DNA of 64,000 bases from the NCBI GenBank assembly GCA_032027085.1, contig JAVSMS010000001.1, forward strand, positions 884,332-948,331. Direction: 5' to 3'. A program made the translations under genes and the position numbers. The notes under the pieces were generated by a model. That model worked only from the letters and a program-made list of their open reading frames with translations. It was not told where the DNA came from and searched no databases. The DNA is from Pseudorhodoplanes sp. GTDB taxonomy: Bacteria > Pseudomonadota > Alphaproteobacteria > Rhizobiales > Xanthobacteraceae. This document shows positions 20,470 through 35,698 of the stretch, piece after piece. The number at the start of each line of letters is the position of its first letter. Position 1 is the first letter of the stretch.

Positions 20470-20563
20470 GCGCCGCTGGCTATGGCGCCGGAACGGCGCC
20501 GCCGGGCCGGCGTTGGCCCGAAAGACAAACGGGCGCAACCTCTCTCGGCAATGGAAAAGACAG

Positions 20564-30117: not shown

Positions 30118-30211
30118 TCGAGAAAAAAATGCGGCACCAAGCCACTGCGGCCGCACCAAATATGAAACCTTCCGACCACTTCGGCGTTAGCTACCGCCGG
30201 AGGGTTGCATC

Positions 30212-31273
30212 ATGCCGAATCAGAAAACGCTTGCTGCCGTCGCCGCGCATGGCGCATCGCGCCTGCCGTCGGTTGAGGTCGACAGCTATAATGTCGAATT
30301 GAAGGACGATGAGGGATTCCTGGGCGACCGCGCCAGCAAGGGGGCGTTCCGCGACATTATCGAAAACTGGCGCAAGCCGCTGCGCAAGGCCGGCGAGGAC
30401 CCATTCGGTGACACACCAAGTGAAGACCTGAACAAGAAGACGCTCGATGACCTCCTCAGCAAGGGCGATGCGGAAGCCGCCGGTATCGTGCAGGGGGCGA
30501 TCGAAGATTTTTCGCAGCAACTCGCTCTGATTATTCGGCGGTTCCTGAAGCTGAAGAGCTGGGCGAAGACAGAACGCATTGTCGTGGGCGGCGGATTCCG
30601 CGCAAGCCGCATCGGCGAACTGGTCATCGGACGCACTGCCGTCATCCTGAAGGCGGACAAGATCAATGTCGATCTGGTGCCGATCCGTAGCGATCCGGAT
30701 GAAGCGGGCCTGATCGGTGCGGTGCATTTGGCACCCGCCTGGATGTTCAAGGCGCATGAGGCCATTCTGGGCGTCGATATCGGCGGGACCAACATCCGCG
30801 CGGGGGTTGTCAATCTCAATCTCAAAAAGAAGAGCGACCTGTCGAAGGCCAACGTTTGGAAATACGAGCTGTGGCGGCACGCGGACGAGGATGATGTGAA
30901 GCGGGAAGACGCCGTGGACGCACTCGCCGGCATGCTGAAACGGTTGATCGCGAAAGCAAAAAAGGAAGACATGCAACTCGCGCCCTTCATCGGGATGGGC
31001 TGTCCAGGCATGATACAGGAGGACGGCTCGATCGATCGCGGTGCACAGAATTTGCCGGGAAACTGGGAATCCAGCCGTTTCAACCTGCCGCAAAGCCTGC
31101 ACAATGCGATTCCGAAGATCGGCGAAGACGATACCGCGATCGTGCTGCATAACGACGCGGTGGTTCAAGGCCTGTCGGAAGCACCCTTCATGCAGGATGT
31201 GCAGCACTGGGCGGTCTTGACCATTGGCACCGGGCTGGGCAACGCCAAGTTCACAAACCGCAAGGACGATTGA
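30212..31273 (+). CDS. ROK/glucokinase-like ASKHA protein with circularly permuted motif order
   Basis: The 353-residue protein has the motifs of ROK sugar kinases but in rotated order. First come blocks that normally end a ROK protein: KGDAEAA (85-90), IVVGGGFRASRIG (123-135) and DEAGLIGAVHLAP (163-175). Only then come the blocks that normally begin it: LGVDIGGTNIRAGVV (phosphate 1, 186-200), GCPGMIQEDG (263-272), HND with the presumed base Asp315, and TIGTGLGN (phosphate 2, 337-344), nine residues before the end. The zinc-binding CxCGxxGC segment of many ROK kinases is absent. ATP binding seems likely; the substrate is unknown. GGAGGG precedes the ATG. Confidence 0.75.
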   Translation: MPNQKTLAAVAAHGASRLPSVEVDSYNVELKDDEGFLGDRASKGAFRDIIENWRKPLRKAGEDPFGDTPSEDLNKKTLDDLLSKGDAEAAGIVQGAIEDFSQQLALIIRRFLKLKSWAKTERIVVGGGFRASRIGELVIGRTAVILKADKINVDLVPIRSDPDEAGLIGAVHLAPAWMFKAHEAILGVDIGGTNIRAGVVNLNLKKKSDLSKANVWKYELWRHADEDDVKREDAVDALAGMLKRLIAKAKKEDMQLAPFIGMGCPGMIQEDGSIDRGAQNLPGNWESSRFNLPQSLHNAIPKIGEDDTAIVLHNDAVVQGLSEAPFMQDVQHWAVLTIGTGLGNAKFTNRKDD

Positions 31274-32823: not shown

Positions 32824-33305
32824 ACGCGTTCTGCGATATTTCGCTGACCGTCAATGGCGAACGCGTCAACGAGCGGGTGGAGGCGCGTAAATCCCTCGTC
32901 GATTTCCTGCGCGAGGACCTGACGCTCACCGGCAGCCATGTCGGCTGCGAGCACGGGGTCTGCGGCGCCTGCACCGTGCGCGTGGACGGCGAGATCGTGC
33001 GCGGCTGCCTCATGCTGGCGGTGCAGTGCGACGGGGCCAGTGTCGAGACCATCGAGGGCGTGTCCGACAGTGGCGAGATCGCCGATCTGCAGGAGGCGTT
33101 TCAGCAACGCAATGCATTGCAATGCGGCTTCTGCACGCCCGGCATGCTGCTGACGGCGCAGGCCTTGCTGAGGAATGGCAGCGTGCCGAGCCGTGAGGAC
33201 ATTCGCGAACACATTTCCGGCAATTACTGCCGCTGCACCGGCTATCACGCCATCGTGGATGCGGTGACAGCTGTGGCGCAAGCGCGCGCGGGAGGCCGCA
33301 AGTGA
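32820..33305 (+). CDS. Xanthine dehydrogenase-family [2Fe-2S] (small) subunit
   Basis: A 161-residue iron-sulfur subunit. The N-terminal plant-type cluster ligands are in GCEHGVCGACTVRVDG plus a later Cys (RGCLM). The C-terminal helical cluster domain has QCGFCTPGML and YCRCTGYH. It relays electrons from the molybdenum centre to FAD. It overlaps the medium-subunit gene by 4 bases and the large-subunit gene by 4 bases, so all three are translated from one transcript. Confidence 0.95.
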   Translation: MNAFCDISLTVNGERVNERVEARKSLVDFLREDLTLTGSHVGCEHGVCGACTVRVDGEIVRGCLMLAVQCDGASVETIEGVSDSGEIADLQEAFQQRNALQCGFCTPGMLLTAQALLRNGSVPSREDIREHISGNYCRCTGYHAIVDAVTAVAQARAGGRK

Positions 33306-35698
33306 AGATCACCGCCGACGTCCCCTCGCCACTCACCGCGCTCGATCGGCCGAATTCCTATATAGGGCGCGCGGTGCCGCGGCCGAACCTGGCGCGGATG
33401 ACGCAGGGCCGCGCGCAATATGTCAGCGACGTGGTGCTCCCGCGGATGGCGCATGTGACCTTCCTTCGCTCGCCTTATGCGCATGCTCGCATCGTCAAGA
33501 TCGACAAGAGTGCGGCCGAGAAAGCCAGGGGCGTGGTCGCTGTTGTCACCGGCACGGAATTGTCGGAGGTGATCACCCCCTGGGTGGGTGTACTTTCACA
33601 TCTGAAGGGCATCAAATCGGCGCCGCAGCACGCGATTGCGGTCGATCGCGCGTGCTGGCAGGGCGAAGCGGTCTGCGCCGTGGTCGCCCGCACGCGGGCG
33701 GAGGCGGAAGACGCCTGCGAACTGATCGATATCGAATACGAAGAGCTGACACCGGTCACCGATCCGGAAACCGCCCTTGCCCCGAAAACGCCGGTGATTC
33801 ACCCCGAACTTGGCGACAATCTCACCTTCGAGCGCACGCTCGATGTCGGCGAGGTCGACAAGGCCTTTGCCGAATCCGACGCTGTCGTGGAAGCAACCTT
33901 CCTCTTTGGCCGTCACACCGGCGTCACCAACGAACCGCGCGCCATCGTCGCCGACTGGAATCCGGGCGAGCAGCGCCTGACCGTCTATCAGGGCACACAG
34001 GCGCCGCACATGATGCAGAACCTGTTCGCCAAGCATCTCGGCCTCGAGGAGCATCAGGTTCGCGTACTTACCAAGGATGTCGGCGGCTCGTTCGGCATCA
34101 AGGTGCATACCTATGCAGACGAGATGGCGACGGTGGCGCTGTCAAAGTTGCTCAAGCGCCCGGTGAAATTCGTCGCCGACCGCATCGAGAGCTTCGTCAC
34201 CGACATCCACGCCCGCGATCACCGCGTGAAAGGCAAGATCGGCGTCAAGAAAGACGGCACCATCACCGCCTTCGAGATCGATGATCTCACCGGCATCGGC
34301 CCCTACTCCGTCTATCCACGTACCAGCGGCATCGAGGCCAACCAGGTCGTCAACCTGGTCGGCGGCCCCTACCAATGTCCGAACTATCGCGCCCGCGCGC
34401 GCGTGGTGTTCCAGAACAAGAATGTCATGTGCCAGTATCGAGCCGTCGGACATCCGATCGCGACTGGCGTGACCGAAGGGCTGGTCGATCTCGCCGCGGC
34501 AAAAATCGGCATCGATCCGGCGGAGTTGCGTCGAAAAAATCTTTATCCCGATGACGGCTATCCGGCGACCGCCGCGTCCGGTCTCAAGTTCGAGAAACTG
34601 TCGCATCACGCATCCCTCGACAAGATTCTGTCGATGATGGAGTACGAGGCGCTCTGCGCTGAGCGCGATGCAAAACGCAAGGAAGGCATCTATCGCGGGA
34701 TCGGCCTCGCCTCTTTCATAGAGGTGACCAATCCAAGCGCCGCCTTCTACGGCGTCGGCGGCGCACGTATCTCCTCACAGGACGGCGCGACGGTGCGGCT
34801 CGACGCGACCGGCGCGATCTTCATCCATTCCGGCGTGACGGAGCAGGGCCAGGGCGCGGAAGCGGTGCTGGCGCAATGCGTCGCGTCCTCCTTCGGCGTG
34901 CCGATCGAGCGCGTGCGTGTGGTCACCGGCGACACCGACAATGTCCCCTATGGCGGCGGCACCTGGGCTTCGCGCGCAGCCGGTATCGGCGGCGAAGCAG
35001 CGTGGCAGGCCGGCAAGGCGTTGCGGCAGAATGTGCTCGCCGCCGCCGCGTCGATCCTGCAAGCGCAGCCGGAAGGCCTCGACATCGTGAACGGCATCGT
35101 CGTCGACAAGGGCACGACGCGCGAGCGCATTACGCTCGATGAGGTGGCGCGCATCTGTTATTTCCGGCCCGACACCTTGCCGCCCGGCTTCCAGGCCGAA
35201 CTGATGGCGACACGGCATTATGTTCCACGCGCCTGGCCCTTCGCCTTCACCAACGGTATCCAGGCGAGCTATCTCGAAGTCGACACCGACACCGGCTTTG
35301 TGAAGCTTCTGAAACACTGGTGCGTGGAAGATTGCGGCACCGTGATCAATCCGCAGCTCGTGGACGAGCAAATCCGCGGCGGCATCGTGCAGGGGCTGGG
35401 CGGCGCGCTTTTTGAGCATTGTCTTTATGACGAGCGCGGTCAGATGCTGAACGGCAACATGGCCGACTATCTCGTGCCGATGGCGGTGGAGATGCCGGAC
35501 ATTGAGATCGGCCACGTGGTGACTCCCACCGCCGATTCAGAACTCGGCGCCAAGGGTGCCGGCGAGGCAGGCACCGCCGGTGCGCCCGCGGCCGTGATGA
35601 ACGCGATCAATGACGCGCTGCGTCCGCTCGGCGCCAAGCCGCTGACTGCAATGCCCTTCACGCCAGGGGTGATACTTAGGGCGATTGGAAAGGTCTAG
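33302..35698 (+). CDS. Xanthine dehydrogenase-family molybdopterin-binding (large) subunit
   Basis: A 798-residue catalytic subunit that binds the molybdenum cofactor. Conserved stretches include RGRAQYVSD-like RAQYVSDVVLP, GGSFGIKVHTYADE, QGQGAEAVLAQCVASSFG and the C-terminal GAKGAGEAGTAGAPAAVMNAI with the catalytic Glu. True CO dehydrogenases carry an AYRCSFR loop; here the matching place reads CQYRAVGHP, so this is a form II/other hydroxylase. It may hydroxylate an aromatic or N-heterocyclic compound, fitting the catabolic surroundings. It starts with GTG. Confidence 0.92.
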   Translation: MKITADVPSPLTALDRPNSYIGRAVPRPNLARMTQGRAQYVSDVVLPRMAHVTFLRSPYAHARIVKIDKSAAEKARGVVAVVTGTELSEVITPWVGVLSHLKGIKSAPQHAIAVDRACWQGEAVCAVVARTRAEAEDACELIDIEYEELTPVTDPETALAPKTPVIHPELGDNLTFERTLDVGEVDKAFAESDAVVEATFLFGRHTGVTNEPRAIVADWNPGEQRLTVYQGTQAPHMMQNLFAKHLGLEEHQVRVLTKDVGGSFGIKVHTYADEMATVALSKLLKRPVKFVADRIESFVTDIHARDHRVKGKIGVKKDGTITAFEIDDLTGIGPYSVYPRTSGIEANQVVNLVGGPYQCPNYRARARVVFQNKNVMCQYRAVGHPIATGVTEGLVDLAAAKIGIDPAELRRKNLYPDDGYPATAASGLKFEKLSHHASLDKILSMMEYEALCAERDAKRKEGIYRGIGLASFIEVTNPSAAFYGVGGARISSQDGATVRLDATGAIFIHSGVTEQGQGAEAVLAQCVASSFGVPIERVRVVTGDTDNVPYGGGTWASRAAGIGGEAAWQAGKALRQNVLAAAASILQAQPEGLDIVNGIVVDKGTTRERITLDEVARICYFRPDTLPPGFQAELMATRHYVPRAWPFAFTNGIQASYLEVDTDTGFVKLLKHWCVEDCGTVINPQLVDEQIRGGIVQGLGGALFEHCLYDERGQMLNGNMADYLVPMAVEMPDIEIGHVVTPTADSELGAKGAGEAGTAGAPAAVMNAINDALRPLGAKPLTAMPFTPGVILRAIGKV

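Follow-up and report, generated by a model that had tools for sequence, protein, structure and literature searches.

A putative circularly permuted ROK-type kinase with EcfG-like promoters in Rhizobiales

Gene and motif order

The locus described here raises the question of whether a protein that carries the closing motifs of a ROK kinase ahead of the opening ones is a single rotated kinase core and, if it is, what such an enzyme might do in the cell. The gene lies in a stretch of 64,000 nucleotides of Pseudorhodoplanes sp. DNA, referred to here as the window, with the following features.

30164..30188, plus strand: EcfG-like promoter GAAAC-N16-CGTT, 23 nt upstream of the start codon
30199..30204, plus strand: GGAGGG upstream of the ATG, read directly from the sequence and taken by us to be Shine-Dalgarno-like
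30212..31273, plus strand: putative permuted ROK-type kinase gene, an open reading frame with an ATG start encoding 353 amino acids
30212..30421, plus strand: residues 1-70, the probable new N-terminus (profile alignment with hhalign, column counts over 72 rows)
30422..30760, plus strand: residues 71-183, ROK C-lobe and linker, with the GGG 126-128 adenosine motif and DEAGLIGA (profile match)
30761..31270, plus strand: residues 184-353, canonical ROK N-lobe (profile columns 6-140; Pfam ROK 2-141)

Translation of the open reading frame places each motif at the residues given in the original prediction: the IVVGGGFRASRIG motif starts at residue 123 and DEAGLIGA occupies residues 163-170, followed by GVDIGGTN (187-194), GCPGMIQEDG (263-272), HND (313-315) and GTGLGN (339-344). 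The N-lobe motifs are thus phosphate-1 (DIGGTN, 189-194), CPG (264-266), NLPGNW (280-285), the catalytic HND and phosphate-2 (GTGLGN), and the chain does end, as had been noticed, just beyond phosphate loop 2, with nine residues after GTGLGN. The protein scored 43.1 bits against PF00480 (ROK; gathering cut-off 22.9 bits), the best stretch pairing residues 186-349 with positions 2-141 of the 294 in the profile, about half of it, and a second stretch also being present; the same profile matched 35 of the 36 members of a homologue set (A2) at E 0.01. The rotated kinase is a single-copy gene in this genome, which is one contig of 4.97 Mb, and no protein of the genome matched PF00480 at E 1e-15, a threshold of which the rotated kinase, too, falls short. 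Eight of the 36 A2 homologues carry a lysine-rich tail of 20-38 residues past the phosphate-2 loop (L002, L004, L010, L012, L014, L016, L020 and L035).

The original prediction had proposed a search for homologues with the same motif order. Among 397 genomes sampled from the order, 61 gave a match at E 1e-10 or better, and 57 (own genome counted) hold a near-full-length homologue with that order. Four order genomes hold fragments only (G230, G368, G387 and G227), one with internal stops, which may reflect repeated loss of the kinase. The family profile matched in 16 of 385 class genomes at E 1e-25 (four matches with an internal stop) and in 16 of 299 phylum genomes at 1e-12 (three outside the class; two with an internal stop), the two samples overlapping. 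Matches were also found in 24 of 61 nearer relatives, one of which has a short piece alone (G1019) and another a full copy plus a piece (G1023). Identity among homologues in the order genomes and nearer relatives ranges from 47 to 86%, and the family is patchily distributed. A search of 72,556 plasmid records gave 207 matches (111 Rhizobium, 79 Sinorhizobium), and in 204 of these a single place spans 80% or more of the query; among the listed entries that bear a label, most are called 'ROK family protein', one 'glucokinase' and two 'hypothetical protein'. A viral source was rejected, as 29 pattern matches included no relative.

Probable rotation of a ROK-like core

A family profile built from 36 homologues (A2) was compared with a canonical profile built from 40 ROK open reading frames of the same order. 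In native order 131 columns align (186-345 versus 6-140, score 70), whereas rotation at 183-185 brings 285 columns into a nearly end-to-end alignment (2-344 versus 6-300 of 301, score 100, E 1e-13), and offset 184 was the best of the 39 rotations scanned. The scan repeated with 72 rows again peaked at 184 (106 versus 73.6 native), and for both of two unpermuted control groups it peaked at offset 0. Eight column-shuffled family profiles scored 13-19 against the ROK profile, compared with 70 native and 100 rotated, and reversal of residues 1-183 lowered the rotated score to 70.6.

Taken alone, residues 1-183 match canonical C-lobe columns 203-300 (E 2.8e-7) and residues 184-353 match canonical N-lobe columns 6-140. 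A reading of the protein as two repeats was rejected because each segment corresponds to a different half of ROK, and it is when these halves are joined in rotated order that the single 285-column alignment results. The alignments confirm that C-lobe motifs precede N-lobe motifs and support the reading of the core as rotated yet complete, with the chain broken just upstream of the ExGH segment. Residues 1-80 alone gave no significant match to the canonical ROK profile (E 0.22) or to a PPGK-like profile (E 0.13), so it is the joint alignment that supports reading this part as a new N-terminus. From the profile comparisons we consider it highly probable that the protein is one rotated ROK-like core, in preference to two repeats, an unrelated fold or a misassembly.

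Two AlphaFold models were built from only six sequences and are of low confidence (pLDDT 57.7, pTM 0.60 and 0.55). A permutant is expected to span the junction of a tandem domain pair, and the ten best Foldseek matches of both low-confidence models were two-domain hexokinases I/II (TM about 0.2), which span 292-405 columns at an rmsd of about 28-38 Å. The single-domain hexokinases, glucokinases and ROK kinases listed for these models covered 125-216 columns, and other single ASKHA chains also gave long matches (MreB at 290-292 columns, an Ssz1-containing chain at 338). As a sign of permutation in these models, the long hexokinase I/II matches are suggestive only.

Active-site motifs and a proposed rebuilt N-terminus

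Column counts were made over 72 homologous rows, window protein included. Residues GGG126-128, D163, D189, G191, G192, N194, N280, H313, N314 and D315 are invariant in all 72; GTGLGN is present in 71 rows, with a gap in the other, and position 193 is T in 48, S in 21 and R in 3. Toward the new N-terminus, H13 is kept in 71 rows, G38 in 72 and D39 in 71. The DxGxT phosphate-1, phosphate-2 and adenosine motifs and the catalytic Asp by which a ROK kinase is recognized are all found in the rotated kinase. These residues strongly indicate that it would bind ATP, and it very probably works like a ROK member.

The zinc motif, GHx9-11CxCGx2G(C/H)xE, is called characteristic of all ROK members in the available part of PMC2742894. 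The absence of this motif, already noticed in the original prediction, extends to the family: CxCGxxGC occurs in 0 of the 72 rotated rows, window protein included, versus 41 of 46 other ROK open reading frames collected, and a looser cysteine pattern occurs in one of the 72. We do not class the protein as an ordinary ROK member, because tests of motif order and of the zinc motif showed its C-lobe to come before its N-lobe (best rotation 183-185) and its zinc motif to be missing.

In the rotated alignment, HGAxxLP (H13-G14-A15-x-x-L18-P19) falls on xGHxxLP of the canonical GExGHxxLP, whose Glu lies two gap columns further up, opposite V10. The GFxGDRAS segment (35-42) falls on the lost zinc motif, G35-F36-L37-G38-D39 being aligned with G-C-I-E-T, and the cysteines are gone. 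The HGAxxLP, YN.E and GF.GD segments are strongly conserved in the rotated family. For human GNE, the available part of PMC2742894 describes sugar contacts by N516, D517, E566, H569 and E588, and a C-terminal helix embedded in the N-lobe; the latter makes a joining of the old termini sterically plausible. Compared with GNE, the rotated kinase retains the catalytic pair and has lost E566 and H569 from their places; G38, which adjoins the near-invariant D39, is the residue aligned with E588. Since the ExGH residues and the zinc-motif Glu are not in place, the kinase may act on a different substrate or may have become inactive.

EcfG-like promoters

EcfG is the general-stress sigma factor of alphaproteobacteria, and the genome studied here encodes NepR. 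The promoter-like site in the window is one base off the GGAAC-N16-CGTT sequence given for R. etli EcfG1 in the available part of PMC3892343. The strict pattern GGAAC-N16/17-CGTT occurs upstream of 19 of the 72 homologues, with 0.13 expected from Markov shuffles, and of 21 of 967 other picked genes in the same 72 loci (Fisher p 4e-13, a type of value that overstates independence because the loci are related). Wider patterns, chosen after inspection of the upstream sequences, gave 24 of 72 versus 26 of 967 for G[GA]AAC, the form found in the window (0.25 expected), and 30 of 72 versus 31 of 967 for G[GAC]AAC (0.33 expected). Even with the wider pattern, 42 of the 72 homologues have no EcfG-like site upstream. 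An EcfG-like site of their own precedes 2 of 13 OtsB genes. Two more strict matches lie elsewhere in the window, at 20490 (plus strand) and 14770 (minus strand). Considering the enrichment, we think it likely that the rotated kinase is under stress control by EcfG, and for many of the homologues such control is strongly indicated.

Gene neighborhoods

Genes for trehalose, a sugar that protects cells under stress, are near the rotated kinase in 16 of the 72 loci; the loci differ in length, and the picked-gene cluster held the kinase itself in 66 of them. By clustering, OtsB is present in 13 loci, within 2.5 kb in 12 and always upstream of the kinase (nine divergent and four co-directional arrangements); by annotation it is also near the kinase in L040, and OtsA and GH15 occur without a picked OtsB in L149 and L156. 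These assignments were confirmed with Pfam on one member each (OtsB in L139, OtsA in L156, GH15/TREH_N in L142). A block of OtsA, GH15 and OtsB recurs next to the kinase in L136, L139, L142, L145, L148, L151 and L158, and in L156 OtsA is extended at its N-terminus by about 260 residues. Clustering and annotation revealed neither OtsB nor OtsA/GH15 at 56 of the 72 loci, window included; in the window's own genome OtsA and OtsB are located elsewhere, and a classical glucokinase (PF02685) is also encoded. On S. meliloti pSymB the upstream neighbor of the homologue is annotated as a NAGGN osmoprotectant peptidase. Other neighbors include a PAS histidine kinase in seven of the 72 loci (L139, L152, L160, L162, L165, L168 and L169), DUF892 proteins in six, and, also in six, a 501-residue protein that we labeled an MFS transporter from its sequence.

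In the window, the kinase is flanked by what we take to be a hydroxyacid dehydrogenase-like open reading frame upstream and a VOC-like one downstream, and presumably by ring-cleavage-type and dehydrogenase genes. The position beside homoprotocatechuate genes that had been remarked on therefore stands for this genome and does not carry over to the family: of the neighbors that cluster, most recur only in L031, L033 and L034 or in L031 alone, an aldehyde-dehydrogenase-like one recurring also in L138 and L143. A functional link to the homoprotocatechuate genes was judged unlikely because most of these neighbors are confined to near relatives. The context common to distant homologues is the general stress response and trehalose, not homoprotocatechuate genes. 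A xanthine-dehydrogenase-like large subunit (window 33302-35698) was seen in seven of the 72 loci, with L041 and L127 outside the near relatives.

EcfG controls OtsA/OtsB trehalose synthesis in B. diazoefficiens (PMC8092242, available part). The OtsC/OtsB/OtsA module described there resembles the loci studied here in its EcfG-type promoters and in the presence, near some rotated homologues, of OtsA and OtsB and, in the six loci, of the putative MFS transporter; the main text of that account, in its available part, makes no mention of a rotated kinase.

Proposed function and alternative substrates

The catalysis, substrate and pathway that we infer for the rotated kinase would be as follows. 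The old termini would be joined through a short linker of about 14 residues (about residues 171-184) and the chain reopened past phosphate loop 2, directly before the ExGH sugar/zinc segment. In the usual two-lobed ASKHA cleft, ATP would be held by the intact phosphate-1, phosphate-2 and adenosine motifs, and its phosphate would pass to a hexose hydroxyl with Asp315 as base; the sugar wall, formerly ExGH plus zinc loop, would be remade free of zinc by the HGAxxLP...YNxE...GFxGD segment. EcfG would switch the kinase on, the most likely substrate would be glucose, possibly freed by the GH15 trehalase-like enzyme beside some homologues, and the glucose-6-phosphate formed would feed trehalose synthesis by OtsA/OtsB. 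That glucose or another hexose feeds trehalose synthesis is our best guess. Glucose phosphorylation as the supply for trehalose synthesis is a tentative proposal, somewhat short of even in our estimation, and the account as a whole, an EcfG-induced rotated ROK-type kinase turning glucose into glucose-6-phosphate for OtsA/OtsB, comes a little nearer to an even chance.

The rotated kinase might instead act on another stress solute, such as trehalose, maltose, another disaccharide or an amino sugar, the loss of the zinc loop having opened the pocket. The replacement of ExGH and the zinc motif by conserved segments, the OtsB and GH15/TREH_N proteins near the kinase in some loci and the classical glucokinase already present in the genome are all consistent with such a substrate; the catalytic HND and NLPGNW segment, however, resemble those of hexose kinases, and within the set searched BLAST placed polyphosphate-glucokinase-like proteins nearest to the N-lobe, leaving this a reading that we hold to be rather unlikely. 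We place similarly low weight on a natural, long-maintained permutant of the hexokinase/ROK fold whose new chain end supplies the zinc-free sugar site and which, as a general-stress enzyme, uses a substrate new to ROK kinases, for instance trehalose or another compatible solute.

Origin and relation to other kinases

In a tree of 59 rows (12 rotated, 7 PPGK-like and 40 ROK), drawn with a midpoint root and carrying a long-branch warning, the rotated rows form one clade (100/100) that falls outside the two other sets on a stem of 3.8 changes per column. A single origin of the permutation would be the simplest reading. Class and phylum profile searches at E 1e-25 and 1e-12 found no unpermuted close sister. 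With ROK kinases (PF00480; GNE/NanK, NagK, ROK glucokinase) the rotated kinase shares the phosphate-1, phosphate-2, adenosine and catalytic ND motifs; it differs in being permuted, in lacking the zinc motif, in having HGAxxLP for xGHxxLP and in its deep, separate clade. The group-A glucokinases (PF02685) match it weakly, at phosphate-2 (E 0.16), have the normal order and are represented by a separate gene in the same genome.

The polyphosphate (ATP) gluco(manno)kinases (NF045942/1woq) have the closest N-lobe by BLAST in the set searched. Residues 183-353 found their best matches in PPGK-like proteins from the same order that lack the zinc motif (best E 2.4e-7), the best PDB match was 1woq, a polyphosphate/ATP-glucomannokinase (E 2e-4), and six of the seven genomes with a PPGK-like gene, out of 121, also carry the rotated kinase; CxCGxxGC is absent from the three PPGK-like open reading frames checked, as it is from the rotated kinase. 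These data would fit a rotated offshoot of the PPGK branch with stress polyphosphate, in place of ATP, as its phosphate donor. Residues 1-183, however, have no PPGK match (E 0.27) and match canonical ROK instead, and rotation brings no gain against PPGK-like sequences (score about 89 both native and rotated at 183-184), the rotated full-length alignment being found only with canonical ROK. PPGK proteins also differ in their normal order, their length of about 240 residues and their retained ELAHHP, the score of the rotated kinase against NF045942 is 22.2 bits versus a model cut-off of 250, and the tree, with the long-branch warning given above, sets the rotated clade apart from both groups. 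Simple descent from PPGK is weakened because the C-lobe part does not match, and we regard a polyphosphate-dependent glucokinase as improbable. Zinc-less PPGK-like proteins of about 240 residues with ELAHHP, scoring below the NF045942 cut-off, were seen in a few genomes of the order (L099-L101 and L119-L125).

The ROK family includes regulators, and the rotated core could bind ATP and sugar for signaling without phosphorylation; the replacement of the published sugar ligands and the PAS histidine kinase in seven loci would agree with a sensor of this kind, but the catalytic Asp315 is invariant in all 72 rows and Pfam detected no DNA-binding domain in the window protein, and we think such a role improbable to the same degree. 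An assembly or annotation artefact fusing two gene ends is dismissed as having a vanishingly small chance, since the motif order is conserved among homologues (57 of 397 order genomes and 204 plasmid records) and the genome is a single contig.

Significance

We know of no natural circular permutant of the ROK/hexokinase fold. A limited literature search, covering mostly open papers without their supplements, found no description of a rotated ROK family. In their available parts, PMC1079889 treats permutation within kinase fold groups in general and does not describe this family, PMC1976428, PMC7824862, PMC10326533 and PMC7701253 contain matching terms in unrelated places and no rotated ROK family, and PMC12696579 makes no mention of permutation. 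B. diazoefficiens requires its trehalose stress pathway for proper nodulation, according to the available part of PMC8092242. A conserved family of probable rotated kinases, present in many rhizobia and linked to a stress pathway, raises the questions of whether a two-lobed kinase can tolerate a chain terminus newly placed next to the active site and whether a dedicated stress kinase serves trehalose synthesis.
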